Shown here piece by piece: positions 26,461-60,965 of a DNA stretch of 64,000 nt (positions are counted from its first letter, which is position 1; each line of letters begins with the position of its first letter). Location of the stretch: contig NBAZ01000009.1 of NCBI GenBank assembly GCA_002794735.1, forward strand, positions 1,116,001 to 1,180,000, written 5' to 3'. The stretch is from Pyrrhoderma lamaoense (taxonomy: Eukaryota > Basidiomycota > Agaricomycetes > Hymenochaetales > Hymenochaetaceae). Below the pieces are notes generated by a model. The model saw nothing but the letters and a program-made list of their open reading frames with translations. It did not search any database and was not told where the DNA came from. The translations under genes and the position numbers were made by a program.

Positions 26461-29400
26461 TCAGGAGCGAATCGAACGATGTATAGCTCGCGGCCGTTGC
26501 CTGGCTGTTGGTATAGATGAATCTGACTGAACCGAGTCTTCCGAGTCTTCATCTTCACTTGCGTGAGATACCATATCAATGTCATCGTCTTCATCATCCG
26601 GCTCACTCGGGGTGGGAGCAGGTGATCGATACTTTGGCGGACGCCCATTCCTCGCAATTGGATTTCCTGCTGTCGCCTTGAGGGGACCACCTTTATCGTT
26701 TCCACTACCCTTTTTACTACCATCCTTTGCTCTATTATTTGTAGCATTCTTTAAAGGCTTTGGTTCTGGTATCTGAGGTCTACTATCAACACTATTAGCA
26801 TCTATCTTGTAAACAAAGGTGACAATTTGGGGTTCAGGGTTTATGGGTGTTAGGTACATACCTATTCTTTGAGGAAACCTTTCCCCGGTTATGGCGCTTT
26901 GGGCAGGGGAACGCATAGTAGGTGTCTTGGTGGGTGTATGTAAGCGTCTAAACGTGTGAGCAAGAGAAAAGATGCTTGATCAGCACTTCATCCCAAGGAA
27001 TGATATAGAGTGAACCAGACATACTTAGTTCTCGTCTTCATTGGTGGAGTTGAAGGGACGGGGTATTTTCCTTCTCATTTTCTTCCTCTTGAGCACTAGA
27101 CCGATTTGAAATATAATGAGAAAAAGAAAGCTCTGTGTTGTTGGTGGGGAACCTTACGTTTCTGGTTCCGACTCAGATGTATTTTCTACTTCCGATGCAC
27201 TGCTATCATCTTCTATATCCCTCCGCCGCGCGCCCCTTGAGTTGGATGGAACGGGGGTCTCGTCTCTCTCGGACTCAGATGCGGAAGTTACAGGGTCTGG
27301 ATTCCCCCTCTTATCAGACTTCGTCCTTGAAATTTTTATACTCTCAAGTCAAAAACTACAAACATTCTTGAATTGGTCTATAAGTAGCTTACCTAGAGCT
27401 GTTTGATCTGCCACTGTCAGCCGGCTGTTCCTCGGCGTCGATATCAAGTTTGGCTTCCGACTCTGCATCGGAGTTTGCTAGACGGGAGTTCTGAGTAGGT
27501 ACTGTGCCTTCAAACCGACGCTTTTTTGGCCGAGTCACGCCGATGTATTCAAACACCTCGGAATATACCTCATCGTGGAAACAAGCCTGCTCGTCATAAT
27601 CGTGTAGCAAGATGGAAAAGTGCTTTTCAAGCTTGGTCTTGAAACGTAGAAAGGCTTTGTCTGTGACTGGATCGTCAAATGGACATAACTGGTAATGTAG
27701 ATTATGATGAGACTGAAACCAGGATACTCATTCAGTGGTTAAGTTCATACCTCAGTGAGATTAGCTACCAGAATATAGAGGGTGTACAGGAGCTGTTGGT
27801 CTGCTTTGGGAGGCAGTATCAGCTTACTAAGAAGTTGACAGAGGGTCTTGCGTTCTTCAGCTACAACAGGAAACTATCAGATATAAACTCGTTCATACTG
27901 AGTTATGCCTCCCACCTGCTTTATTATTATCATAGAGTGCACGAAGAATATCAACAGCCAGATTTACATGCACGGCGAAGTTTCTGTATTGTCTGCCCGA
28001 TCACTTTTGTTGGATCAGTCCAGTCAATCAGCTGCTGTCCGAACTGAAGTGTTGAGATCATCTCTTGATCTTCATCTAGGTCGTCTATCAGCTGGACTAC
28101 CATGTTGAATGCTGTTACAAATATCTATGTGATTTTAGAGCTATACGAGTATGGATTTGTCAAACCACACTCACAGATTGCATTCTGTTTTGATTTGTAG
28201 CTGAAGAATAACAGTATACGGGAAGAAATATGCAAGACATTGTCGAAGTTCTTGGTTATCACTTGATGCGGGTGATACATATGCAAGAACAAGACTAGTT
28301 AGTACCTGATCAAGAAACCGTTAGTACTTCATCAACCGTAGCATATAATGTTTAATTACCCTTTCATCTTGAATAAGCCCAAAAAGCATCAGTTTAGCGA
28401 GTCCCAAACAAATCAGAGCTTGTACAGGTTTGGAATCCTCTACATTAAGAACTTGTAACAAAAATGCAACCACTCGCTCATCCTATGCATAGTTTATCAA
28501 CGATGTTCTGCAGTACGATTATCTATACTCACTATTGCCTCAGCAGGACCATATAAACCCTTATCATACGTCATCAGTATATCAAAAACAACCTGGAGGG
28601 CCTTGAGGCGGATAGATTCAGGAGCGCTTTGAACCTGACCAAGAAATAATTTGAACGATCCTACAGCCATGTTCTGTATGCTTGGGTCAACAGATGATCA
28701 ATGTCTCCGATTGTCTCACATACTTTTGCAAGTAGACAGCATAAACCAAGGCTGACAAGCCCCTTTCCCGGAGTAGAAACTCCTTTCTTCTGACAGAAGG
28801 AACTATGAGGTCAGCAAGGATGCCTTCAAGAGTTGAATTATCTTCAAAGCTCTGTCAAAAGGTTGAGTGTATGTAAAACTAAGCAGTACAGATGAACTTA
28901 CACCATGGGCACGCTCTAGAACTGCAATGCACATGTTTAAGCAATGTAGATCTGTCAGATCCGCTTGCTCTCTTTCTTCAGCAGTCATTTCGGTTGCTTC
29001 TCGGCGGATACGGCTTCGTGCTGTGATACTCCCAGGTCTTGCGGTACCTGTTGTAGAGTCTCCATCCATTGTTTCATTGCCTATGGACTATTCTATGGTC
29101 AGGAAGGGATCGAAGTTTTCGGGAATGCAACATTACCATATCTTCTTCCGTGATAGGGTCTCTGAGCTCATTAATCACCTCAACCACGATTCGAACAAGA
29201 TCTCGTTCATTAGGGGACATAACACTCAGAACACCCACTGCCGGCTCAATAAGGGACTCTGGGAGTTCTGGGTGAGCAAGCATATTTCCTAAAGGTGAAG
29301 TAAATCGAATCAGAGAAATAGCTATCAGTGTGATGTACAATACATACTAACGACTCCAAACATTTTCCGACGTCCAATCTCATCAGAATAATCCAGATGG

Positions 29401-30901
29401 ACAGCAAGACGCAGAAGCTCGCCCAGAGTAAATTCGGATGCGGACTGCCTTCTCCTCACGGGCATCATCTTCTGTGTCATTATCTTCTTGTTTTGTTTCT
29501 ATGTATATATTATACAATGTTTGAAGCCGAAATGCTAAGGCTGTTACAACGGGTAATGCTGTCTCCAATTTAGACTCGTCCTTTTTTTCAATACAGTACT
29601 CTACAAATGTACGAGCTAGAAGTGCGGTTTCTGGTTTGAGTTTTGCCCAGAAGTTATCTAAAAGGTGATCAGCTCGGCGTTATTAAAAGATATGCTTTTA
29701 ACTTGCCATCAAATTCAAGCTCATTCACGACCTCAGCTCGTGTAACAAAAACACTTTTCAAGGCATCACATGCTACATCTGGCGTTTGCACATCAAATAG
29801 TTGTATAAACGCTGAGAGATCGCCTTCACAAGCATCAACCCAAGTTCCAAGTAAGCGGCCAGCTGTCACCCTTACAGAGTCTACGCGATCGCCGAGACCT
29901 TGCTTTACAACCTGCTCTCTCTGTGAGATTGTGAGTTGGCGAGGATGAGATAAACGTGGGAGCACAGATGCGAAGACTAATTTGCGAGCGAGTGTATCTG
30001 TATCACGCATTCGAGAGAGTAATGCGGGTAATGTCGAGGGTGTAAACGGTATATGAGTAAGAGCAGCACGCCTCACCTCTCTGTGATTGGAACGATATCA
30101 ACAATTATGCCTAGGGTTACAGAATAGATACCTACGGAGCTGGGTCATAGTATAAGGACGTCAGCAGCGAAGTGACGATTGGTGGCTCGTCATCCTCAAG
30201 CTCATATGGATCTTCACTAGCAGCAAGCCTTGACAGAGCAACAACACTATATGCTCTTACCATCGCTTCCTTGTCAGTAAGACGTTCGACTAAAGCTGAT
30301 TTAAGCTCCGCGTATAGGTCTTGACTGAAACTATTTAAAATCTGTTTGCTATTGTTACAAGCATATACTCACTCTAGCTCCCCAGGTTCCCGATTACTTC
30401 AGAGGCAAACTGTAGACATCGGCTCCTCACGTCTTTACTCTTCGCCTGGAATCCTTTCAGAAAGAATTTGAGGAGTCGGGTGACGAACCTAGACGAAGGA
30501 GTCTCGTCTTCTTCCGTTTCTGAAGCTACAAGGACTTTCATATTAGTTTACATTCAGACTCAATATATATATATATATCATACCTTTTCCCCGAGAAACT
30601 TCACATAGCTGGCAACAAATTTCACTATCCTATCACCAGCGGCAACACCCTTTTTTATAACAAGCACACGATTCAACATGTCCATAAAGATTTCAGCAAA
30701 TAGTTTTTCTCCAATTAGTCTTATTTCTGGGTTTCCTCTACCCCTGTCTACAGATTCCGTTATTTTTGCTGAAGCCGCCTGAATCTTGAATAGGGTAACA
30801 CAGTTCTTCTTATGAGTTGCCGCAGACGTTTGGACCTGATCGAAAACAGATGGTATCGCTGAAGAAAGAGAGTCCGGATCGAATGCTGGCTTGGGCGCCA
30901 T
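26461..30901 (-). CDS. Condensin subunit, CAP-G/Ycg1/Cnd3 type, copy 1
   Basis: HEAT-repeat subunit of condensin, which binds the kleisin and DNA during mitotic chromosome condensation. The first exon starts MAPKPAFDPDSLSSAIPSVF and carries the family block LIGEKLFAEIFMDMLNRV and GDRIVKFVASYVKFLGEK. Later minus-strand exons encode HEAT-type helices: AEVRRAALTHIPFTPSTL would be typical and VRRAALTHIPFTPSTLPALL is seen at about 30075; DRVDSVRVTAGRLLGTWVDA (about 29870); LPVVTALAFRLQTLY (about 29550). The C-terminal exon (26916-26461) is basic/acidic and disordered, ending HRSIRS. More than ten introns. One apparent frame break near 29450, before the block GELLRLAVHLDYSDEIGRRK. The gene is divergent from copy 2, roughly half identical in the clearest exons. 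Confidence 0.9.
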
Positions 30902-31138
30902 GCTCGATGACTACCAATATATGTCCTATGCTTGTAGTATTCTATGTAAGTTTAGAGCACCTGTAGAAAAATAGGTCTTGTCACTTGAGTCGAGGAAGAG
31001 TCACGGTGTTGAATACAACCGCGTGACATCAACATATGGACGCGTCGCGTTACTTTGTGACCAAGTCGCGTTGACTGCCTCTTGAACTCAACTTACAGGC
31101 GTGTCGGCCTGATCACCGTGCCACTTTATTCACGAAAA
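30902..31138. promoter_or_regulatory. Ancestral bidirectional condensin promoter, left copy
   Basis: 237 bases between the start codon of condensin copy 1 (30901, minus) and a stranded start codon of copy 2 (ATG at 31139-31141, plus). Contains ACGCGT at 31040-31045, the core of an MCB element recognised by the MBF G1/S factor in other fungi, plus nearby CGCG-rich words. The regulatory role is inferred from motif and position. Confidence 0.55.
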
Positions 31139-31144
31139 ATGCCG
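30944..31144 (+). repeat. Direct repeat, left copy (about 201 bp)
   Basis: Near-identical, same orientation, to 40500-40702. Only scattered one- or two-base differences. Ends with ATGCCG, the first two codons of condensin copy 2. The two copies bracket the whole palindromic block, like a very long target-site duplication. Confidence 0.92.
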
Positions 31145-31563
31145 TCGCGTTACTTTTGTGAGCTCGAAGCGAGCAGAAGGGGTCCAATCTATTTTGCATT
31201 ATGAACAAGTCGTAAAGTACAGTGGTATGGCAAAAGTTTTTGCACGTCTATTTTTTGATGTATTTCGCGATTTCCGTACTCAATTTTAATTTTCAACTCT
31301 TCAAAAATTTCAAGCAACCTTATAATACATTAAAAGATGTTCATGTAAAAAATTAGACCAGTTTATTAAGTGAGAAGTCGAGAACTCGAAAAATGGGGGT
31401 CTCACTATATGCGCAAAAAATGAGCACTTTTTCGACACATTTTGGACTATAGAAATTCAACAACTCATTTTTACAATACAAAAATTTGGTATAATATAGA
31501 TATCTACGCAAGAAAGTTTGAAAATGTAAAAAACAGTGTTTTTTCTGAAAAAATACTAGTAAA
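31144..31563. mobile_element. Left junction segment with Tc1/mariner-like end
   Basis: AT-rich, non-duplicated segment between the direct repeat and the left palindrome arm. It opens (31144-31161) with an 18-base word copied from inside the direct repeat. At 31218 the sequence TACAGTGGTATGGCAAAAGT resembles the terminal repeat of Tc1/mariner elements next to their TA target. No partner end or transposase frame was found, so at most a remnant. Confidence 0.35.
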
Positions 31564-34500
31564 TAAAAGGGCAAAGTAGATTACCTTAGTATAGTAAAAG
31601 AAAACCTGTGTGAAAAAGTCCGATAAAGTATTTCCAGGTCTATCAAGATCCTCTATGTTGATCTATGAAATGATGCTGAATATCTCGCGGGGTAGGTAAC
31701 TCTGAAACTCAGTTTATCGTATTAGAGAAGCCACGGTCTATTTTAGACTACTTACGGAATAAGTCTTGCATAGGCATGACCAAAGTAGAGTGAATGAGTA
31801 CTTAGTTAAAGTTCTAATATCCTTTGTATCTTACAATCCACAACACCAAATTTTTTTATGATCTTCCGATGAGCCCAATTATGCTCTTGACTAAATTAAT
31901 CTAAACTACAAACTATCTAATGCAACAGAAATGCAATGCTATAAGTACATCTGTGATGATTGCTGGTAAATACAAATGCAGGGTGAGTAGTGAAAAAAAA
32001 TGCAACTCCAATGGTATAAATGTAAGTGCAGAGAGAAAATCGAGAAAAAAATAAGGGATCTGTCGAGTATCCCTTCTGTTTGACAATCAAGGTCATCTTG
32101 GATCCGAAGGAAACGCTTTTTGCCAGATTAACCCTGCCTGCAGTTATATTAGATACTAGAATGAAGAGGGATTTTGTGGACATACCTGCTCCTCTTCCAA
32201 CTTTGTGAAGGCAAAGGTAACTCTTCTTCTGCTGGTCTCTTATTGACCTTGCTATCCTTTCTCTTAAGGACAGAAGTGACTTCGATCTCTGGCAAGTCTA
32301 TCTTCAGTAAGGCCCGTAAAATCGCATTGTGCACGTATTTGGGTCCAGTAAGACGAGCCGGCTTAGTCGTATCTTGCTCCACGGAATAGAAGAAAGCAAT
32401 CAGGGCCGTGCGGAAGGCTCTGACCAATGTGAGTTGCCATGTAAAGGAAGCAGGAACTTGCAAGATGAATTCCTCGAATAGGTTATCGTCTTTTAGGAAT
32501 GCCACGCGCCTGCCCATAGACATGTCACCAGGGAAAAGTTGACAGAAATGCTCCTTTTGCTTAAGAGATCTCTCCAGGGTTTCATCATCAACTGCAGCGG
32601 GTGAGCTCTCATATATGAAAGCAGTCCAGACGATTATCCACCACAATGATTCCAAATCATGAAGGTAGTTATGGTATATTCCACCTTTGGCATTCCCTGA
32701 TCTCCTGTTCCCTTCGTCTTGGGTATCGTCTTCCATCACTTCGTCAACCGTAAGCTGTGACGGGAGGAAGTAATGGCTTGGCTAGCAATCTCTATGGACA
32801 TGAAATTTGGTGTTCCCTTTTAATGAATACCATCAGAGAAAATACATAAAATCAACTGCAGAAACACATACCGTTCGAATGTCATGTTTACCCCCCCATC
32901 CAACCTCCTTAGCGTACTCGAAGTCTCCGATCAGGCCCCGTGTCTCTTCAGTCACTGGATCTTTATAAAGATACAGGTTACCAACACTGATATCTCTATG
33001 CACCCAACCGGCCTCGTGCATAACTAGTAAGGCTATTGGCATTTCGTCAGTTTCTTGGGCTTTGTATATTCATCTATAAAGACCACTTACTCATCAAAAC
33101 ATCAATCAAAACAGTATACATATCCCTCGTATTCCTCAGCTTATAGTAAGGGACAGCAACCTCTTTATAAACAATCCTGTAATGATATCGGTGGTAGTAT
33201 TGCGACCTCCGGTTTTTCTCGAGTGCAGCGATAAATTGCCGATACTGCTTTCTTGTTTCAGACGAGTTACGGGACTTGACGGATTTGCTATTAACAGTGG
33301 TTCTAAACGAACCTTGACTGGGTGGAACAGGGAACTCAAATGGAGAAGAAAGGTCAGGAGATTGACCACGGAGAATTGTGTTCCTTGTATGGTCCTCAGT
33401 ATCAAAGGCCTTCACCCTTCCCCAAGCTATTGGGCTCAGAGTATGAGTTCTGAAGTATTCTCTCTTCTCGGGATCACTGATATCATTGCAGATCATGTCG
33501 TGTATCCTATCCTCCGTCTGCCGCTCCTCTCCATGCCAGTAGTCCTTGATCACCACTTCCTCTCCGTACTCTCTTGAGCCTTTTCGAGCACGCCATATCC
33601 GGGTGCCGGAGCTCACAATACCTTCCGCCTTCTCTTTTGAGATTAAATCTTCTTCGCTCGTATAGTAGTACTCGCCATCGATCTCGAACCTATATAAGCG
33701 ATTGCCATCTTCGAGCTTTGTATTCACTGTCATATCCCATCCCAGCTCCTCTTTACTAGCGAACGCTAAGGAAAGAAACATCCATATAAGCTCTTTATAT
33801 TGCTTTAGGTATATGTATCAGGATGTGTAAGAATTCTCGAAGTTTATGTTACGATACTTACAGTCCGAAGATCAAAAGTATCACAAGCCACAAGCATAGC
33901 CCGTGTAGCGGTCCATATCCTCAAATTAGTGCCTTCAATATCGATCCCATAAACATGTCTACGACTCGGGTCAACTGCTAGAATATGTTGCATGCTGTGG
34001 ATGGTTTGTTCGATATTCTGTGTAAACAGTCAACATTGATTTCGTTTTAGTAGGAGGTAGTCACGTATTGACTTACTTGAAAGACATGTTCGGCGCCGGT
34101 GCCCGTTTTGAATTCTAATGCAACGGCTATGTTATACCAAAGTACCTTGTCCCCCATCGATTCTTCTGGATTTTGCAATACTAGATATCCGTCCGGTCTT
34201 GTAATGCTATCCCTTATTGACCAAGGTATTGTGTTTCCGTCATTGATGAGAGTTACGGTCGGCTCAGCACTAGTCGAACTTGTCTTTTGAGCAGCTCGAA
34301 TAATGGCATCGAAGATGTTCTTCAGAGGCTTGTTATAGACGACATTCTCACGGGTATTCTTGTATCTCAAATGCTGAAATTCCCTCCATACATAGGAGCC
34401 TTCATACTCCTCTACAAGGTGACCACTATCGATCAGAGAGTCTACGATGCTTTCAATGTCAAATCCGTGCCGAAGTGGAGGCATGATCGACGAAAAGAGC

Positions 34501-35489
34501 TCGAATGTTCCCCTTGGAACGGTTTTGCCCAGATCTTGCAGGATAGCACTTCTCTGGTGCTCTGAGTACCCCGAGCAGTATTCCCCAGTTGATCCAAGTG
34601 GTGCTTTTACAGGGGAATCTCTGGCTTGTTCAAGAGAGGCTGTCCTTTGTCTCCTTGGTGTCTCAACCAACTGCGAACGTGCTTTAGCGTTTGGAGGGGT
34701 GGTTGGCCTCTTAAATGGCGACGATTGATGTGATCCAGCATTACTCCCTACACGTGATACTGGCCTGATTGATGGGGCGCTGTGTTTTTCAGTTTGTTTT
34801 GGGTATATTGGTCCACTTGACGAAGTAGTCGCCGCAAGTACTGCCTCCGTTTTTCGGGGAGATGATGTAGAGGGCACTGGATGATCTGATTGCGAGGTAT
34901 AATGGGATGCGATTGATAGCTCATGAGAGCTGTGCGAGGATGTTCCCTCAGAATTGGAATTAAGTACCATCTCAAAGATGTTGTGAGATACTTGTTGTGT
35001 TGATAGGTAAGAGAATAGACGCGCAGACGCGCCGTAGTCACATATGATCGTGTTCCGTGACACGCTTAAGAGTCCTTGATCGACACTACTACAATTTGGG
35101 CTATAAATGCATTAATCAGCAATATCTGTAATCAACAAACTATTGAAAGATACAATTATTCTCTCTCAATTTTCAAGGATATTATGAGCTGAAGTGCTTG
35201 TAAGATATTCTACTTTTAAGTAATATACTAGAGGATATTATCACTTTACTGGAAGAAAAAATAATCAATTTTTGACAGCAACTGTATGGATCCAAAGGAT
35301 TTACGCGCTTTAAGTGGAGAAGATTACTACATATGTACCAGCTGATTGTGGACCCTGGCGTCCTTGAAATTATACCCAGCGCTATATTTCTACAAGTGAC
35401 CCTAGATCTGACTAAGTCACTTAGTAGACTCTTATACTACTCTACCTTAGGACCTAGAAAGCGCTGACACGCGGTGATGCATACCTTTT
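31564..35489 (-). repeat. Palindrome, left arm (about 3.93 kb)
   Basis: Reverse complement of 36290-40224. Over the longest shared open frame (235 residues) only three amino acids differ, so identity is very high. The arm contains a complete FunK1 gene with its flanks. The outer edge is set where homology stops (CCTTTTA shared, then unrelated); the inner edge where the word near ACCTTTT at 35489 stops matching. Confidence 0.93.
32149..34970 (-). CDS. FunK1 fungal-type protein kinase, left copy (apparently intact)
   Basis: Fungal-specific kinase family (FunK1). Five exons, mirrored from the right copy, join to about 863 codons; the first in-frame ATG is at 34970, within EMVLNSN. Domain order: Ser/Pro-rich disordered start; a conserved N-terminal region ending TRPDGYLVL and then VALEFKTGTG (a possible PD-(D/E)xK arrangement, about residues 252-290); then the kinase with GEEVVIKDYWHGEE (catalytic Lys), HRDISVGNLYLYKDP, GDFEYA (DFE in place of DFG), GTPNFMS and the FunK1 block HDLESLWWIIVW. 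Ends PLHSSI. FunK1 genes are expanded in mushrooms; substrates are unknown. An upstream leader exon cannot be excluded because the frame is open to 35063. Confidence 0.9.
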
Positions 35490-36289
35490 GCGTTTATAAA
35501 ATCCCGAAATAAATATACTGATAATCCCTAGGTGTGATTGAGTAAATCAGTTCGAAATATTCAACTACGATGGAGCTTTCTTATTTTGTATCTAACTATA
35601 CAAGACAAAAAATACAGGCTTTGTTACTTCTTTCACTAGTTATATCTGGAATCCTCGTGAAAATACGTCCACTCGTCATGACTATATACATATACAAACA
35701 TGAACCTCATCACCGTCATTATTTCCGCACATCGGCACCTTTTTCTCCTATAAGACTCGTGTCTGAATCTCTAGATTATTTACAGTGCACCGTTATCCAA
35801 AGAGCGTAAAGCACGAGATGCGCATCCTCCTCTTCCAAATCAAGATTCTATTCTGCGTTCAAGTGCCACACAAGGTTCCATCGCATGCCCAGCAGACAGT
35901 AGGCTCCACAATATCTCTGTGTGCCCTGGCTTGCAACTCATCAACCATGTCCTGCGATAAACCTCGTGAGTAAGGAAATTCTGTATACAAAGTATCAAAA
36001 GAAGGTAACAGGAAGAAAAAAAAAGGGGGGGGGATAAAACGTGTGTTAGGAGAGTAATACCACCGAGAGAGATAGAGAAAGTAAAAGACAAAAGAAGCGC
36101 ACAAGCATATTTCTCTCAGTAAGGACAGATAACTCTGCGCGTTCTGCTTCCGAATTCTGCTTCGCTCGTATTGGATATAATATGCTCTCCAACGCGATAT
36201 TCGAGCGCGATTCATCAGAGACAATCGCTCAAATCCACATGGTCAGGATCGAGCGTTGTATCATTACTTTACGATTGTTCAAATAAGCA
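35490..36289. other. Loop (spacer) of the palindrome
   Basis: About 800 non-duplicated bases between the two arms, upstream of both divergent kinase genes. Contains a purine run with A9 followed by about nine G (near 36015-36031). A minus-strand open frame (36224-35859) starts with a very basic stretch MSLMNRARISRWRAYYIQYE and ends HRDIVEPTVCWACDGTLCGT. It looks partly coding but matches no family I know. Confidence 0.6.
35859..36224 (-). CDS. Possible small gene in the palindrome loop
   Basis: 121 codons. Basic N-terminus rich in Arg/Tyr, a hydrophobic middle (ICLCASFVFYFLYLS) that may instead be an intron, and a C-terminal stretch QDMVDELQARAHRDIVEP with a CxxC (CWAC). No family recognised; it may be a chance frame. 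Confidence 0.25.
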   Translation of the reverse strand: MSLMNRARISRWRAYYIQYERSRIRKQNAQSYLSLLREICLCASFVFYFLYLSRWYYSPNTRFIPPPFFFFLLPSFDTLYTEFPYSRGLSQDMVDELQARAHRDIVEPTVCWACDGTLCGT

Positions 36290-39200
36290 AAAAGGACATG
36301 CATCACCGCGTGTCAGCGCTTTCTAGGTCCTAAGGTAGAGTAGTATAAGAGTCTACTAAGTGACTTAGTCAGATCTAGGGTCACTTGTAGAAATATAGCG
36401 CTGGGTATAATTTCAAGGACGCCAGGGTCCACAATCAGCTGGTACATATGTAGTAATCTTCTCCACTTAAAGCGCGTAAATCCTTTGGATCCATACAGTT
36501 GCTGTCAAAAATTGATTATTTTTTCTTCCAGTAAAGTGATAATATCCTCTAGTATATTACTTAAAAGTAGAATATCTTACAAGCACTTCAGGCTCATAAT
36601 ATCCTTGAAAATTGAGAGAGAATAATTGTATCTTTCAATAGTTTGTTGATTACAGATATTGCTGATTAATGCATTTATAGCCCAAATTGTAGTAGTGTCG
36701 ATCAAGGACTCTTAAGCGTGTCACGGAACACGATCATATGTGACTACGGCGCGTCTGCGCGTCTATTCTCTTGCCTATCAACACAACAAGTATCTCACAA
36801 CATCTTTGAGATGGTACTTAATTCCAATTCTGAGGGAACATCCTCGCACAGCTCTCATGAGCTATCAATCGCATCCCATTATACCTCGCAATCAGATCAT
36901 CCAGTGCCCTCTACATCATCTCCCCGAAAAACGGAGGCAGTACTTGCGGCGACTACTTCGTCAAGTGGACCAATATACCCAAAACAAACTGAAAAACACA
37001 GCGCCCCATCAATCAGGCCAGTATCACGTGTAGGGAGTAATGCTGGATCACATCAATCGTCGCCATTTAAGAGGCCAACCACCCCTCCAAACGCTAAAGC
37101 ACGTTCGCAGTTGGTTGAGACACCAAGGAGACAAAGGACAGCCTCTCTTGAACAAGCCAGAGATTCCCCTGTAAAAGCACCACTTGGATCAACTGGGGAA
37201 TACTGCTCGGGTACTCAGAGCACCAGAGAAGTGCTATCCTGCAAGATCTGGGCAAAACCGTTCCAAGGGGAACATTCGAGCTCTTTTCGTCTATCATGCC
37301 TCCACTTCGGCACGGATTTGACATTGAAAGCATCGTAGACTCTCTGATCGATAGTGGTCACCTTGTAGAGGAGTATGAAGGCTCCTATGTATGGAGGGAA
37401 TTTCAGCATTGAGATACAAAAATGCCCGTGAGAATGTCGTCTATAACAAGCCTCTGAAGAACATCTTCGATGCCATTATTCGAGCTGCTCAAAAGACAAG
37501 TTCGACTAGTGCTGAGCCGACCGTAACTCTCATCAATGACGGAAACACAATACCTTGGTCAATAAGGGATAGCATTACAAGACCGGACGGATATCTAGTA
37601 TTGCAAAATCCAGAAGAATCGATGGGGGACAAGGTACTTTGGTATAACATAGCCGTTGCATTAGAATTCAAAACGGGCACCGGCGCCGAACATGTCTTTC
37701 AAGTAAGTCAATACGTGGCTACCTCCTACTAAAACGAAATCAATGTTGACTGTTTACACAGAATATCGAACAAACCATCCACAGCATGCAACATATTCTA
37801 GCAGTTGACCCGAGTCGTAGACATGTTTATGGGATCGATATTGAAGGCACTAATTTGAGGATATGGACCGCTACACGGGCTATGCTTGTGGCTTGTGATA
37901 CTTTTGATCTTCGGACTGTAAGTATCGTAACATAAACTTCGAGAATTCTTACACATCCTGATACATATACCTAAAGCAATATAAAGAGCTTATATGGATG
38001 TTCCTTTCCTTAGCGTTCGCTAGTAAAGAGGAGCTGGGATGGGATATGACAGTGAATACAAAGCTCGAAGATGGCAATCGCTTATATAGGTTTGAGATCG
38101 ATGGCGAGTACTACTATTCGAGCGAAGAAGATTTAATCTCAAAAGAGAAGGCAGAAGGCATTGTGAGCTCTGGCACCCGGATATGGCGTGCTCGAAAAGG
38201 CTCAAGAGAGTACGGAGAGGAAGTGGTGATCAAGGACTACTGGCATGGAGAGGAGCGGCAGACGGAGGATAGGATACACGACATGATCTGCAATGATGTC
38301 AGTGATCCCGAGAAGAGAGAATACTTCAGAACTCATACTCTGAGCCCAATAGCTTGGGGAAGGGTGAAGGCCTTTGATACTGAGGACCATACAAGGAACA
38401 CGATTCTCCGTGGTCAATCTCCTGAGCTTTCTTCTCCATTTGAGTTCCCTGTTCCACCCAGTCAAGGTTCGTTTAGAACCACTGTCAATAGCAAATCCGT
38501 CAAGTCCCGTAATTCGTCTGAAACAAGAAAGCAGTATCGGCAATTTATCGCTGCACTCGAGAAAAACCGGAGGTCGCAATACTACCACCGATATCATTAC
38601 AGGATTGTTTATAAAGAGGTTGCTGTCCCTTACTATAAGCTGAGGAATACGAGGGATATGTATACTGTTTTGATTGATGTTTTGATGAGTAAGTGGTCTT
38701 TATAGATGAATATACAAAGCCCAAGAAACTGACGAAATGCCAATAGCCTTACTAGTTATGCACGAGGCCGGTTGGGTGCATAGAGATATCAGTGTTGGTA
38801 ACCTGTATCTTTATAAAGATCCAGTGACTGAAGAGACACGGGGCCTGATCGGAGACTTCGAGTACGCTAAGGAGGTTGGATGGGGGGGTAAACATGACAT
38901 TCGAACGGTATGTGTTTCTGCAGTTGATTTTATGTATTTTCACTGATGGTATTCATTAAAAGGGAACACCAAATTTCATGTCCATAGAGATTGCTAGCCA
39001 AAGCCATTACTTCCTCCCGTCACAGCTTACGGTTGACGAAGTGATGGAAGACGATACCCAAGACGAAGGGAACAGGAGATCAGGGAATGCCAAAGGTGGA
39101 ATATACCATAACTACCTTCATGATTTGGAATCATTGTGGTGGATAATCGTCTGGACTGCTTTCATATATGAGAAGTCACCCGCTGCAGTTGATGATGAAA

Positions 39201-40224
39201 CCCTGGAGAGATCTCTTAAGCAAAAGGAGCATTTCTGTCAACTTTTCCCTGGTGACATGTCTATGGGCAGGCGCGTGGCATTCCTAAAAGACGTTAACCT
39301 ATTCGAGGAATTCATCTTGCAAGTTCCTGCTTCTTTTACATGGCAACTCACATTGGTCAGAGCCTTCCGCACGGCCCTGATTGCTTTCTTCTATTCCGTG
39401 GAGCAAGATACGACTAAACCGGCTCGTCTTACTGGACCCAAATACGTGCACAATGCGATTTTACGGGCCTTATTGAAGATAGACTTACCAGAGATCGAAG
39501 TTACACCTGTCCTTAAGAGAAGGATAGCAAGGTCAATAAGAGACCAGCAGAAGAAGAGATACCTTCGCCTTCACAAAGTTGGAAGAGGAGCAGGTATGTC
39601 CACAAAATCCCTCTTCATTCTAGTATCTAATATAGCTGCAGGCAGGAATAATCTGGCAAAAAGCGTTTCCTTCGGATCCAAGATGACCTTGATTGTCAAA
39701 CAGAAGGGATACTCGACAGATCCCTTTTTTTTTCTCGATTTTCTCTCTGCACTTACATTTATACCATTGGAGTTGCATTTGTTGCATTTTTTCACTACTC
39801 ACCCTGCATTTGTATTTACCAGCAATCATCACAGATGTACTTATAGCATTGCATTTCTGTTGCATTAGATAGTTTGTAGTTTAGATTAATTTAGTCAAGA
39901 GCATAATTGGGCTCATCGGAAGATCATAAAAAAATTTGGTGTTGTGAATTGTAAGATACAAAGGATATTAGAACTGTATCATTCACTCTACTTCAACTTG
40001 TAATTTGGTCATGCTATGCAAGACTTATCCGTAAGTAGTCTAAAATAGACCGTGGCTTCTTCTTATACGATAAACTGAGTTTCAGAGTTACCTACCCCGC
40101 GAGATATTCAGCATCATTTCACAGATCAACATAGAGGATCTTGATAGACCTGGAAATACTTTATCGGACTTTTTCACACAGGTTATCTTTTTACTATACT
40201 AAGGTAATCTACTTTGTCCTTTTA
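36290..40224 (+). repeat. Palindrome, right arm (about 3.94 kb)
   Basis: Reverse complement of the left arm (31564-35489). It differs by scattered substitutions and by one-base deletions in the kinase gene, listed with that gene. Beyond 40224 (CCTTTTAGGGG) homology with the left side stops until the direct repeat at 40500. Confidence 0.93.
36811..39630 (+). pseudogene. FunK1 fungal-type protein kinase, right copy (three frame breaks)
   Basis: Mirror copy of the left kinase gene. Exons: 36811-37702, 37762-37917, 37977-38688, 38747-38907, 38963-39630. Compared with the left arm it lacks one G in a G4 run (37209-37211), one T in a T3 run (37409-37410) and one A in an A3 run (about 39530-39531). 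The first two break exon 1, upstream of the kinase domain; the third changes the last residues. The kinase motifs HRDISVGN, GDFEYA and HDLESLWW are unchanged. Given the window-wide homopolymer breaks, it may be an intact gene with base-calling errors. If the deletions are real, only the left copy is complete. Confidence 0.75.
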
Positions 40225-40499
40225 GGGGTTAAAATCAATAATCTAGCTACGGTCGGCTAAGTAATTGCTGACACGCCGTGCATGTCTCTGTGGCTTGGTC
40301 GGACATTTTCTGTGTGCACGTCATTACGCGTTTTGATTTCCTGATTTGAATCAGAATTTTGAAATTGACGTTCGTAGAGTCACTAGAGAGACTACCTGGT
40401 GCGCCAAAGCGTGATTAAAGCCCGAGTAGTGAAGATCTCTGGCTAGAATTGACTACTCGCCTCTGAGACATACAACAATGTTACCAAGAAAAGTATTTC
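40225..40499. other. Right junction segment
   Basis: 275 bases between the right palindrome arm and the right direct repeat, unrelated to the left junction segment. Contains a short perfect stem (CGAGTAGT / ACTACTCG near 40424-40460). No coding signature. Confidence 0.5.
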
Positions 40500-40702
40500 A
40501 TGTAAGTTTAGAGCACCTGTAGTAAAATAGGTCTTGTCACTTGAGTCCAGGAAGAGTCACGGTGTTGAATACAACCGCGTGACATCAAACATATGGACGC
40601 GTCGCGTTACTTTTGTGACCAAGTCGCGTTGACTGCCTCTTGAACTCAACTTACAGGCGTGTCGGCCTGATCACCGTGCCACTTTATTCACGAAAAATGC
40701 CG
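40500..40702 (+). repeat. Direct repeat, right copy, and promoter of condensin copy 2
   Basis: Same-orientation copy of 30944-31144. It ends at the true start codon of condensin copy 2 (ATG 40697-40699). It carries ACGCGT at 40597-40602, about 95 bases before the start codon, and further CGCG words; a G1/S (MBF-type) element is inferred. Confidence 0.9.
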
Positions 40703-43700
40703 CTGAAAAGAACAGCGACCTCCGTCTCAACTTTAACTCCAGAAAGCATACCGCGGATATTCGAACAGGCACAAGTAACGACAGCAAACCATCAAAAGAA
40801 CTTTGTTGCTTTAAGCAAGTTACATATAGCTGCAGCTGACCTCGATGTACCAACACGAAATGGTGTCAATGAATCAATTTGCAGGGGAAAAGGCTTTTGA
40901 GGACATGTTCATCTCTATGGTCACCCGCCTTCTGCCTCTAAGAAAGGATCCGTGGTTGTTGACCGCGTAGTTAAATTTATAGCTGGATACGTTAAGTTCC
41001 TTAATGAGAAAGGTATGTGTATCAAAGATTAGGTCGGCGGTATGTTTGATGTATTCTTGAAGTAGAGAGGCAAATATCCGGAAATAGAAGTGAGCAGGGC
41101 GATGAAAACCCGGCATACCGCTTTGTACTTCGATTAGCTAGTTTTCTACTAAGAGGTTTTGAAGCCAAGGACAAGAATGTACGATATCGCGTTACCCAAA
41201 TCGTTACAGAGATTATCAAATCCAAGAGCCAGATCGAGTGAGTCCCATGTCATTTTCTTATGAAGACACCCTAAAGAGACTTGTAGCGAGGAAATCTTCA
41301 AATTAGTTCATTCCGCCCTCATCGACCGTGCTCATGATAAAGAACCCATCATTCGCGCTCAGGCTATCATGGCCCTTGGAAAACTGCTGAGCCCGAATAT
41401 CGGAATTGATGATCAGGAAGAGATCCTCAATATCCTTATAGATACTCTTCTTCATGACACCGCAGTGTATGTGTTAGGCGGTCCATTAAACTTTTGTCTC
41501 TAAATCTTACATTGCAATTTTCAGAGAGGTACGGAAAGCTGCTCTTACATATATCCCGATCACATCCGCTACGCTTTCTGCTATCATCTCACGAACACGA
41601 GACGTTGAACCAGTAATCAGAAAACTCGCATATAGCCCGGTACTCGAGCAACTGGAAAGTCCAAGACAACTAACTATTGCTCAACGGGAATTTATCGTAA
41701 AGGCAGGCCTTAGGGACAGAGAAGAAAGTGTTGTCACAGCAGCATCAAAGCTGGTCGCGTCTTGGGCTGATGAAGATGCGGACGTCCTGAAGTTTATTGA
41801 GCTCTTCGACCTTGATGCCGAAAAAGGGAGATATGATGGTCCAGCGCACATGGCGCTTATGTCTCTCTTTAAAACTCGCAAAGATATATTTGACAATCTA
41901 GAGTTTACGAGTACGTACAGGTATAACAAGTCTTGCATGCATGTCTAATATGACCACCAGACGATTTCTGGGATAATCTAACCCCAACAAGGGCTTTCCT
42001 TGCCCGCGCATATGTTGACTTCTGTGCTAGTACAAAAGATGATGCTCGCATCGAGGCAAATATGCCCGTCATGACCGCACTTGCTTTCAGAATACAGTCA
42101 CTTTATAACGAGCTAATAAGCCGAGCTCAAGCAGAGGAAGAAGCGAGGACATTTGGCGGTGGATATGAGAACTCCGAAGCTGTCCTTCCGGAGATCGCAG
42201 ACAAACAATTTGTACTGGGCGAGCTCATGAGAATAGCTGTACATCTAGACTTCGCTGACGAGATTGGACGAAGGAAAATATCAGCTCTTATAAGTATGTC
42301 ACAGGCAATTTCCATAACATGATATTAACAAGTCGTCTAGCAAATCTATTATCACAGGAGGTCCTACCAGATCCACTAGTTCCACGATGTCTTGATATAC
42401 TATGCAAATTGAACAGGACGAAAAGGATCTAATACGTATAGTCGTTGAAATAATTCATGAGCTTCGCGACGCGGATTCAGATGACGAATACATGGTTGGA
42501 TCCCACATATTTTCATCTTTTGTTTAACTAACATTTTGATTTCAGAGAGCAAAAAGCGTCGACTCAACTTTAGACATAGAAGATACCCCAATGCCCACAC
42601 GTACACCCGGCCGACCTCGTAAACCACAGACAGAGATGACTCCCGAAGAGTGTGAACGGGCAAACTTAATTGATATCCGTTGCTTGACGCTATGTGTAGG
42701 CATGCTGGAACGCGTTGAAAGTGTAAGTTTGGAATCCCCTATATGTTAACTACTTCTCAATCCGGTTCAGTCATTCGAAGATAACTCTACTTTGGAGGGA
42801 GTGCTGGGAGAATTGATACTCCCTTCAATAGGCAATACAGAACCGAGCGTGCGTAAACTAGCTCTAACAGCCTTGGGGTTATGTTGTTTGATTACATGGG
42901 TATGTCTACTACTCGCACTCAAAACAAATGATTATTCTTCAACTACAACTATCAGCATATGGCAAAAAACTCGTTCAGTAACTTCGTGAATGAGGTTTTA
43001 TCACCTAGTGTTTCCGAGTCCCATAAAGTACAAGCTCTGCAAGTCGCTTTCGATATTATTTTAGCATATGGAGGTGATCCTCTTCACGACGTAGCTCGTC
43101 ACGTAAGGATCTTTTATTTCCTGACGGCTCATCTGACCATATCCATAGGGTGATAAAGTAATCGGTTTTTTGTTACGACAATTCGAAGTTTGCGAATCGC
43201 CTGAACTACAAGCCATATACTGCAAAGGACTGGCGAAACTAATGCTACACAGGTTGATAGAAGATGAAAACGTAGGTGGTTGAGAACGTGAGATCATATC
43301 TTTACTAACGTGCCTTTATCAAGGTGCTTAAAAGCCTAGTAGTAGCCTATATGTCCCCAGATTATGCAGAAAACCAAGAGGTCCGACAAGCTCTGTCGTA
43401 CTTCCTGCCCGTTTACTGCTATTCTCATCCCTCAAACCAAAGGTTGATGCAAAAAGTATGTCCTATTTTCTGTCACTTCGTAGGCAAAATTTAATGACTT
43501 TATCAGATATTTGTGCCTGTGTATGAAGAACTCTCACGAATCCATAGTGACTTGGAAGAAGGCGAGGAAATGGTTAGCCCGCTTCAAGTTGGCTCTCTTC
43601 TTGTTGACTGGACCGATCCTCAGAAGATTGCGTGAGTATACTTGCTTAGTTTAGTGTGGTTTCTTCGACTGACGCCACACCGCTGATTAGAAAATTGTCT

Positions 43701-44919
43701 GGTCTGGATGCGGACGAAACTGTACATTTTGACTTAGCAATCGAAATAGTCAGATGGCTAGCTAACAAGGATATAAGAAGTACGCTTTTTTCATTATAAT
43801 AATTTTAATGATTATCTGATGTATGATTATAGGGGAGGATAAGAAAATCCTTTGCCAACTAGTTAATAGGTTATACATGCCTGAAACGATTGATGAGGGC
43901 AAAATCCGTACCTTAAAGCTGCTCGTGAACGGGGTTCGTACTGTATGTCTCTTGTTCCTCTTTATTATTATAAATTGTTTCCTCACGTAACTATAGCGCC
44001 GGCCTCCCAAGGACGCAATCAGCTTGAATGCACTCACACGCTTTGATAATTCTCTTTCGAAAAAGTATGAAACTCATCTCACTAATTTCAATGAAGAGGA
44101 GTTCCGCAAGATTGAAGAACTGAAGGAATTGTTCGAATTCCTTGATGAAATTATACCAGAAGACAACGAAGAGGATGAGAAACCTAAGCGTACTACTCGT
44201 AAAAGGTATAGTGCTTATTCAATTGTCTCATGAGGTGTTATCAGTAACAGAAATGATAGGCGGTCCGAAAGTATCATCAGCACCTCAAGCGCGGACAGCT
44301 CAGAGGCCGGATATAGAGGTAGTTCAGAGCCTAAGTCCAGGGGAAAGGGGAAAGGGAGAGCGAAGTAAGTTTAAGTGATACACTAGCTTATATAACATCT
44401 GATCATTTGTGTCATCAGAAAGCGGCGTGTGTCGAACTCGGATGATGAATCAGATGGAGGAGCTACGTCTGTACCTACTCGTACTTTACCTACTCGGTCT
44501 GCGTAAGTCCATGCTTATCCATGTGTCAGTTAATCTATTAACGTCTCACTTTTGTAGGAGGAGAGCCCCAATAGTTATTGCTCCTCCAGCTCTCTCAGAT
44601 GAGGAAGAAGAAATAATAACCACCTCCGAAGAGCCAACTGATACGGAGAGCGAAGAAGAGGAATCAACACCCCCAGCACCACCTAAACCTAAAGGGCTGG
44701 CAAGACGAAGGTTAGTTCGCCTTCATTATTATCCTTATTAGTTTTCTTCCGGCCTTTTAATTGAACAATTCCAAAAGGTCCCGATATAACAAATCAGCCG
44801 AAGATGATTTGCCTGATGACCCAACGCTGATATTCGACTCGATTATGGTTAGCCTCGCGAATGTTGATGATGCAGAGGATGATGACGACGAAGTTGATAA
44901 CTTGCTTGATGGGTTGTAA
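40697..44919 (+). CDS. Condensin subunit, CAP-G/Ycg1/Cnd3 type, copy 2
   Basis: Paralogue of copy 1, oppositely oriented. Starts MPLKRTATSVSTLTPESIPR; shares the block EKAFEDMFISMVTRLLPLRK and VVVDRVVKFIAGYVKFLNEK. HEAT-type exons follow: EVRKAALTYIPITSATLSAI (about 41525), REESVVTAASKLVASWADE (about 41720), MPVMTALAFRIQSLYNEL (42062) and LGELMRIAVHLDFADEIGRR (about 42215). It ends in a low-complexity acidic tail finishing DDDDEVDNLLDGL. About fifteen short introns. Two frame breaks in exon 1: G4 at 40884-40887 and A3 at 40943-40945 each want one more base. Copy 2's tail is acidic while copy 1's is mixed, so roles may differ. Which one is the housekeeping condensin subunit cannot be told from sequence. 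Confidence 0.9.
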
Positions 44920-54797: not shown

Positions 54798-55995
54798 CTA
54801 TAAAAGCCCGGCCTGTTAGTTCCTTGGAACCCATCACTTCATACCTCCCACTTTCATCCAGACCCAGTCATCTTTACTACAAAATTTCGTGTAGCGAGAT
54901 AAATCAGATCACACTGTGATATGGCGCTCGTCACGAGCGGCAGCTCTCCACGACAACGTATATCCAAGTCGAACCACTACAAACATCAACTCGAGTCCTC
55001 TTTATCTTGTTCTTTCGGCGTGGGTCTATACCCAAGCTATATAAAGAGGCTTAACACAGACCACATCATGGTAAGAGATCATACTATTTTATATTATATC
55101 ACTCTTCACTTCGAATTATTGACCTTAGGTTTACTTGTCATTACTACCATTTAGAGTGAGCTCCGACAAGGTAGTACAAAGAAAACAAGAAATAGAAATA
55201 CATGTAAACCTTGTTAGGACCAGCTAACTGGGAGGCAGCGTGTACGTCCTAACTATCACTTTCTGGGAGCTTATATACTTACATTTTCTAGTGTGTCACA
55301 CACCCTGGCGAACAACATGTGAACCATGCAAGAAGAATAAGAACAACTGTGTTCCAAAAACGCTAGGTTAGCGAAACTGTCCAGAGGCCAACAAAGGAGT
55401 CTTATAGTCACGAAGGCAATGTAACATCGGTCTGATTGTGGAGAATGATGGTCCTATACTGCCCATTCTTTGCTTCACTCTCTATGATATAACTCGGTAT
55501 TACTTCTACAGTAGACGCCAGACACTAGAACACAGGTGGTCGTTATAAGAAGTTGAGGCGGGAAAATAATCAAAAGCGTATGTCGTTACGGTTTCTGACA
55601 TCCCGTCAAATACCCACCTATAGGTTTTATGATATCCAATCGTGTTGCCGCGACATCGCTTCCTTCTCATTCGTCATGGTCTATTATACTGTAGATAAAG
55701 TATGTTTGCATACATGTAATAGGGCTCCTGTAATCACCACTCCATGCCCAATACGATTATCCGAGCATCTGTCCCAGGCAGTCCACAATGACGCTTAAGG
55801 ATAGCATTGAGGATAGAGGATATAAAGGTGTTTTAGCAAGCCCAGCGGGAGACCACGGATATCCTTCAGCGAGAAAATATAGTTCTAGCTATCAAACTCA
55901 TATAAGGATATCAATGGCTCGTTAGGCTTGTCTAAACCACCTTCTAGATCCAGTTCTCTTTGCTTTCTTTGGTGCATTTGGCTAGCTGCGGCGAG
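54798..55995 (+). repeat. Diverged direct repeat, copy A (gene relic)
   Basis: Matches copy B (about 60030-60965) in ordered blocks: a TATA-containing start region, AAGTCGAACCACTACAA (about 54967), CTGTAATCACCACTCCA (about 55728) and the hairpin block 55831-55985. The frame from 54921 encodes MALVTSGSSPRQRISKSNHY and more, then a GTAAGA donor. A possible later exon (about 55301-55370) reads WRTTCEPCKKNKNNCVP, which resembles the first half of a Zn2Cys6 cluster (C-x2-C-x6-C). No intact product can be built, so this looks like a decayed gene. Confidence 0.5.
55831..55936. repeat. Hairpin element, copy A
   Basis: Imperfect inverted repeat of about 30-base arms: TTTTAGCAAGCCCAGCGGG through GATATCCTT on the left, and the complement of TTTAGACAAGCCTAACGAG through GATATCCTT on the right. 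Closely related to 60786-60892. Confidence 0.75.
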
Positions 55996-60029: not shown

Positions 60030-60965
60030 TATAAAAACCCCCTGCTATCCATACCTCTCTTGCTCCCCAACAAATATCATCTCCCTACATCTCGCAACAG
60101 AACTCTTAATTTCATCTTTACCTACTTCGCAACCACCCCCACTTATATCAACAAACAATCTCCAAGCTTCGCCTCACACTAGTGGGCATTGATTTTTGAT
60201 TCCAAGCGATGAACCTCGGAACTTGTGGGACGGCACACTCAAAGCCTCCAAGTCGAACCACTACAACTTGCTCTACGTTAACAGAGAATTTACCAACTTT
60301 TTTGTAAGTGTATTCGCTTCATTGCTCCATTATCAATATTTTCCTGGGGTCTGATACTTAAGAGAATAGTGTACTTTGTACATGTACGTCAGGCTTGTAA
60401 GGAGGGGAGAGACCACCCCCTCGTGGGCTTGGTCTTCATACAGAGCCTCCTCTGAAGGTCAATGTAGGCCTACTGCAACACCTACTTTTTGCTGGTACAG
60501 AAGACGATGATTCTCGACTTGTAATGGGAGAATAGGTACCCCTCTGTTCGTTTCCCCCACCGTTTTCTCGATGTCTGCATTTTGTAATTTCATTATGGCC
60601 TATGACTTATGACCCTATGACCCCTATGTACGATATAATAATAGAGGACCTGTAATCACCACTCCAGACCCCCCTCCTCCTCAATATGTATCACCCGCCT
60701 TCCGACAAAATTCACCACAATAGCCAATAGCCAGTATCGCTACTAGGGGATAAGCATTGAGGTACAAGTAGGGGTCCGAAGGTTTCTTTAGCGAGCCTAG
60801 CGGGAGACCCACGGGTATCCTTCAACGAGAAAATATAGTTCTAGCTATTGATCTCATATAAGGATACCAATGGCTCGCTAGGCTTGTCTAAATCACCTTC
60901 TAGGCCCGATCCCTGTCTTCAAAGCTTCCTCTTTTGGCGCTTATGACTAGCTGTGGTGTGGAATG
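60030..60965 (+). repeat. Diverged direct repeat, copy B (gene relic)
   Basis: Partner of copy A about 5 kb upstream. It starts with TATAAAAACC, then a frame reading RNLWDGTLKASKSNHYNLLY, the SKSNHY word being shared with copy A, ending at a GTAAGTG donor (60303). The blocks CTGTAATCACCACTCCA (about 60650) and the hairpin region follow. No intact product seen. Confidence 0.5.
60786..60892. repeat. Hairpin element, copy B
   Basis: Imperfect inverted repeat with arms of about 30 bases (AGCCTAGCGGG...GGTATCCTT and complement of AAGCCTAGCGAG...GGTATCCTT). Where copy A has GATATCC in both arms, copy B has GGTATCC in both arms: a paired change. Confidence 0.75.

Follow-up and report, generated by a model that had tools for sequence, protein, structure and literature searches.

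We analysed a 64-kb stretch of the Pyrrhoderma lamaoense genome, hereafter the window (contig C9, positions 1116001-1180000, in an assembly of 30.65 Mb and 72 contigs), in which a palindromic block with a FunK1 kinase gene in each arm separates two head-to-head condensin genes. This block is probably a segmental duplication made by template-switching break repair, with a fold-back producing the palindrome, rather than a mobile element. It is a well-preserved case of an already known kind of process: the insert and its target duplication, a paralogous empty site, a filler, the variable ends of the kinase unit and the order of the joins were all observed, and the empty site, a related source neighbourhood, the filler and the point of fold-back can be identified within one genome. 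In its exon structure and in its FunK1 and condensin genes the window looks fungal. Coordinates without a prefix are those of the window; all others are preceded by their contig.

The insert, its target duplication and the empty site

Comparison of the block with the window by BLAST aligned the left arm (31564-35489, reverse strand) with the right arm (36290-40224, forward strand) over 3942 columns at 98.2% identity, gaps included, around an 800-base loop (35490-36289, to which no strand is assigned). Direct repeats at 30936-31144 and 40492-40702 surround these arms and align over 211 columns at 97.2%. Both repeats lie on the forward strand and hold the spacer between the condensin genes together with the first six bases of the right gene: ATGCCG closes the left copy at 31139-31144 and recurs at 40697-40702, in register with the right gene. 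The arms, the long repeats and the stranded ATGCCG had all been described in an earlier note on this DNA and were borne out. The extent of the block stood as regards arms and repeats, but the limit of the insert had to be moved rightward to 40491, because 40225-40491 is part of the kinase unit; this flank, on the forward strand and present on the right side only, aligns with the copies at C9:231 kb, C42 and C12 described below. No further inverted repeats were listed in a self-comparison of the whole window (E 1e-6).

The left condensin gene is CAP-G/Ycg1-like and lies on the reverse strand (27920-30902, of which the Cnd3-bearing part and the start codon, 30900-30902, were located), and the direct repeat starts 33 bases past that start codon. 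The right gene lies on the forward strand (40697-44303, taken to the end of its similarity with the C42 copies). Both score above the curated cut-off for Cnd3 (PF12719), at 27920-28854 on the reverse strand (C9:1143920-1144854) and at 42678-43632 on the forward strand. As assembled, exon 1 of the right gene contains single-base frame breaks, and the C42 copy is likewise interrupted. The CAP-G-like condensin gene is usually single-copy in fungi; here such genes are multicopy, with two divergent genes in the window (27920-44303) and more on C42.

An earlier proposal placed the insertion at codon 2 of the right gene and had it duplicate the spacer that the condensin genes share; it also predicted an empty site of some 240 bases. 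The direct repeats support this insertion, and so does contig C42, where such a site exists: 241 bases separate the two gene starts, with a single copy of the spacer and no insert. C42 is itself palindromic (C42:58004-73072 with C42:79881-94911, reaching the contig end) and has, at two places, the right gene joined without interruption through one spacer to the beginning of the left gene (C42:63847-68056 and C42:84898-89107), the single repeat copy lying at C42:67407-67619 and C42:85335-85547. The 241 bases were measured on the right arm of the C42 palindrome, and the left arm aligns with identical sequence. The spacer presumably serves as promoter.

Three further pieces lie on the left side of the block: a filler of 19 bases, some 55 bases from a neighbouring open reading frame (ORF), and half a fold-back transposon. 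Read inwards from the target, ATGCCG is followed by the filler (31143-31161, forward strand, overlapping ATGCCG by 2 bases), which an exact-match search of the window and 10 kb on each side found to be identical to 40600-40618 within the right repeat. Next comes a forward-strand fragment (31160-31221) of the ORF that flanks a kinase unit elsewhere on C9 (C9:229168-229234, a 91% match by alignment), entered at about C9:229168, and then, at a TA, the terminus of the transposon with half of the element (31217-31564, forward strand). The transposon, whose TA and CAGTGG terminus we take to be Tc1-like, matches parts of C1:1336562-1337351 at 96% and 98%; that stretch is a TA-flanked fold-back element, self-complementary over about 790 bases, and a second match to this fold-back element lies at C6:555126-555897.

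The transposon stops and the left arm starts at 31564. Judged by eye, arm and loop run backwards through the order of the C9:231-kb locus to about 229219 and turn at about 230066 into the right arm. At the right end, 267 bases past the palindrome, the insert rejoins the target at AGTATT with 2 shared bases. Overlaps of 2 bases were seen by eye at three joins, for which a simple equal-base simulation gives a chance of about 0.004. A direct repeat of the target with a single copy at the empty site was thus found together with templated filler and microhomology at the joins, and to judge from their sequence these joins look like products of break repair.

Kinase genes and other copies of the kinase unit

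A search with PF17667 confirmed a FunK1 kinase in the left arm, to which the right arm is near-identical. The exon ORFs of the left gene run from 35111 to 34047, from 33817 to 33074 and from 32781 to 32149. The main exon (33074-33817) matches PF17667 with E 1.6e-19 and 70.4 bits (cut-off 24.1), and the C-terminal exon with E 0.005 on the left and 5.6e-4 on the right, both below the curated cut-off. In exon 2 the arms are set apart by 8 silent and 3 coding changes; in the absence of selection more of the latter would be expected (p 3e-4). As assembled, the presumed coding sequence has three single-base gaps in the right copy and one in the left. Most indels of the kinases and of the right condensin gene fall in short runs, a frequent site of sequencing errors that could be their source, and for this reason we do not call these genes pseudogenes. 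A protein search with one kinase exon returned five relatives, the best of them 98% identical and situated on a 2.6-kb contig.

The kinase core occurs in seven copies of at least 88% identity at five loci: the pair in the window, one at C9:231 kb, a pair on C42, and one each on C12 (near the contig start) and C19. The C9:231-kb locus presents, collinearly, the neighbour ORF, the loop-forming sequence, the kinase and a second ORF; neither the neighbour ORF nor the second ORF has a Pfam match. Loop and neighbour ORF were found solely in the window and here, in collinear order, the one other genome match of the loop being C9:229200-230106 (88%). About 655 A+T-rich bases (C9:230106-230761), with similar short sequences at both ends, occur in the C9:231-kb copy but are missing from that of the window. 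For a 2131-base stretch on the second-ORF side, C42 has 1.3 kb (twice) and C12 has 240 bases, with no other match listed.

These copies bear on the earlier suggestion of an unnamed mobile element, which was not upheld. That the palindromic FunK1 block is a discrete element, moving as a unit with a 200-base target duplication, would account for seven close copies at five loci, and one insertion with target duplication is demonstrated. However, similarity to the C9:231-kb locus extends over 229168-234866 in the window copy, 230820-236187 on C42, 231446-235109 on C12 and 231117-234508 on C19 (the last taken at 86% identity, so that these limits may not be true breakpoints). As the limits differ on both sides, the kinase unit shows no termini of its own, and an element with fixed ends was rejected. 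Neighbours vary as well, and the unit is single at C9:231 kb, C12 and C19 and palindromic in the window and on C42. In the tree the C42 arms pair apart from the window and C9:231-kb copies (one of the four inner branches is unsupported), and since the inner joins also differ, the two palindromes look separate. The insert, moreover, includes a piece of the neighbour ORF and half a transposon, and its joins resemble break repair. No transposase or reverse transcriptase was found in the eight ORFs scanned with Pfam, five of them from the block (its other ORFs were unscanned); the matches obtained were to Pkinase_fungal and, once and weakly, to HEAT in an ORF outside the block, and the remaining ORFs had none. 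A mobile element is, in our judgement, extremely improbable.

A DNA search, of the kind that the earlier note had suggested, found other palindromic FunK1 pairs, on C42, on C7 and at C9:87 kb. On C7, 1053501-1057686 mirrors 1059207-1063357 at 97%, the genes pointing inward. At C9:87 kb, 77552-81500 mirrors 92256-96214 at 99%, with genes called FunK1 by DNA similarity and an outward orientation inferred from DNA matches; the arms of both pairs may exceed the queried stretch. We also asked how neighbouring FunK1 genes less than 10 kb apart are oriented: 27 pairs lie on opposite strands and 22 on the same strand (n = 49, from 98 merged genes; 107 of 490 candidates were scored and the best 109 of 117 rows used, the window's own kinases not being among them). 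Ten of the 27 opposite-strand pairs come from one array on C37 (C37:639-15938), where eleven FunK1 stretches alternate strictly in strand within 15 kb. There is thus no general orientation bias of FunK1 in this sample, and we rejected the idea that FunK1 genes generally occur as inverted pairs. In a P450 control (92 of 205 candidates scored), two stretches on each side appear mirrored around about 92.1 kb in C26:86488-97742, as read from coordinates and bit scores only; a control with MFS genes was uninformative (9 of 157 scored). Given the lack of FunK1 bias and the mirrored P450 stretches, palindromes may be a habit of this genome or its assembly and not a trait of the family.

Cnd3 genes were found at two loci, and both adjoin the same FunK1 subfamily. 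On C42 the left condensin gene is cut short at a point corresponding to window position 30510, where it meets the segment of second ORF and kinase. A rough sum (five loci of 14 kb each in 30.65 Mb) puts the chance of this double association at about 0.2%, for a question posed after the observation. The break may first have been repaired against a C42-like condensin copy, which would have brought the repair machinery beside the kinase. A wider idea, which we regard as unlikely, is that a single FunK1 subfamily behaves as a 'core duplicon', its palindromes provoking breaks whose repair spreads the kinase and its neighbours, repeatedly by way of the condensin locus.

Elsewhere in the window, two directly repeated stretches of about 125 bases (55825-55947 and 60779-60903) lie 5 kb apart and agree at 90%.

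Proposed origin and age of the block

We posit that the right condensin gene suffered a break at codon 2, the repair of which copied DNA from a FunK1 neighbourhood resembling C9:229-235 kb. Synthesis would have departed from the target between ATGCC and G, copied a 19-base piece of the spacer a second time and moved over to the kinase neighbourhood, before returning to the target about 209 bases upstream of its point of exit. Such upstream rejoining would duplicate the spacer and the first two codons, so that each condensin gene retained a spacer of its own, which may be the reason why the insertion survived. A fold-back switch between points about 0.85 kb apart on the template would have made the palindrome with its 800-base loop, in the same event or later, joining the arm to a transposon already resident in the copied neighbour ORF. 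The enzymology was presumably template switching or polymerase-theta-like joining, and the immediate donor was presumably an unseen copy.

The arms differ at 40 of 3911 bases aligned with MAFFT (BLAST counts 47 mismatches), by 29 transitions and 11 transversions that are unevenly spread. The direct repeats differ at 4 of 209 bases, all four changed on the right copy relative to C42. The two divergences are indistinguishable (p 0.28), and insertion and palindrome may therefore be of one age. A stepwise history, in which the spacer duplication or one kinase unit came first and the inverted copy was placed inside later, would suit the left stub and right arm, which can be read as two ends of one unit with the inverted copy between them. 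It would also suit the fact that the inverted copy spans the site of the transposon without carrying it, from which it follows that more than one source copy, that is at least two, was involved. The like divergence of repeats and arms, however, and the filler, which links the duplication to the insert's own join, make this history unlikely, though both remain compatible with a palindrome formed later.

The same substitutions bear on whether the block is an assembly artefact, either a chimera formed by fold-back or alleles wrongly joined. The single-base gaps in runs point to long reads left uncorrected, and gaps of this sort are all that separates the inner arms of the palindrome on C42. Against this stand the number, kinds and uneven spread of the substitutions between the window arms, the one-sided position of both the outer flank and the left stub, and the direct repeat with its filler, which a fold-back artefact would not be expected to leave; we consider an artefact very unlikely. 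Overall the arms are 1.0% apart and at least 5.9% from the other copies; gene conversion between them would produce such a likeness, and so would a recent origin. Their divergence profile is a mosaic between C9:231 kb and C42, and conversion between loci is likely.

Several points weigh against break repair with template switching as set out here. The C42 reference is a palindrome too, with inner arms free of substitutions over 12,000 columns (single-base gaps only) and an outer 2 kb that is several percent diverged. It is either very recent or partly an effect of assembly, and its two copies are accordingly counted as one empty site. That site is also a paralogous locus and not a sister strain, since its similarity to the window ends near the gene ends. 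Were C9:231 kb the direct donor, the repeats should have diverged as much as the insert has from it, and they have diverged less: the loop differs from C9:231 kb at 48 of 833 bases (p 0.02 against the repeats). On grounds of age C9:231 kb is thus doubtful as direct donor and more plausibly represents the donor's nearest relative. The low divergence of the repeats could mean that the donor was another copy, that the repeats were converted or that the spacer evolves under constraint. Over the 744 bases of exon 2 there are 11 differences between the arms, and 11 and 10 between the respective arms and C9:231 kb, so the arms are not mutually closest along their whole length and their history is mosaic. 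Finally, two filled-in nicks could equally give a 209-base duplication, with no long-range template switching.

The block preserves, in readable form, one way for a gene family to grow that needs no transposition by the family itself. It further suggests how a core chromosome gene can tolerate an insertion at its start codon, each of the head-to-head genes being given its own spacer. Should FunK1 palindromes prove to be linked with repeated duplication in related species as well, what drives FunK1 expansion could be put to the test.

Comparison with known systems

Vaughn and Bennetzen reportedly described, in 2014, a 'patch-mediated' repair of double-strand breaks in which copies of the target, in direct orientation, border the insertion and no transposase is needed. 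Here, by contrast, duplicated genes form a 9.3-kb palindromic insert, and what is repeated spans the spacer of two head-to-head genes.

Our literature search returned no paper combining FunK1 with 'gene conversion' and none describing FunK1 palindromes in fungi. In Paracoccidioides, FunK1 has undergone a lineage-specific expansion (PMC3203195); its genes are duplicated, as here, and enriched in non-syntenic regions. The main text of that article lacks the word 'inverted', and 'palindrom' appears in it twice, with reference to other matters.

End joining at breaks with protruding ends, with or without polymerase theta, gives direct repeats (PMC5730883, PMC8355091), and the tandem duplications made by polymerase theta mostly show microhomology and occasionally cis-templated inserts (PMC5730883). 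Those breaks, unlike the one proposed here, were induced by Cas9 in mammalian cells. In yeast, inverted duplications are primed by a fold-back at a break (PMC10622511), as we propose for the block, but they yield dicentric chromosomes, and the block is small and interstitial. Palindromes of the human Y chromosome likewise hold genes in near-identical inverted arms, between which conversion has been described (PMC6790999). The arms in the window are only about 4 kb long and lie on another kind of chromosome, and here, too, conversion is possible.

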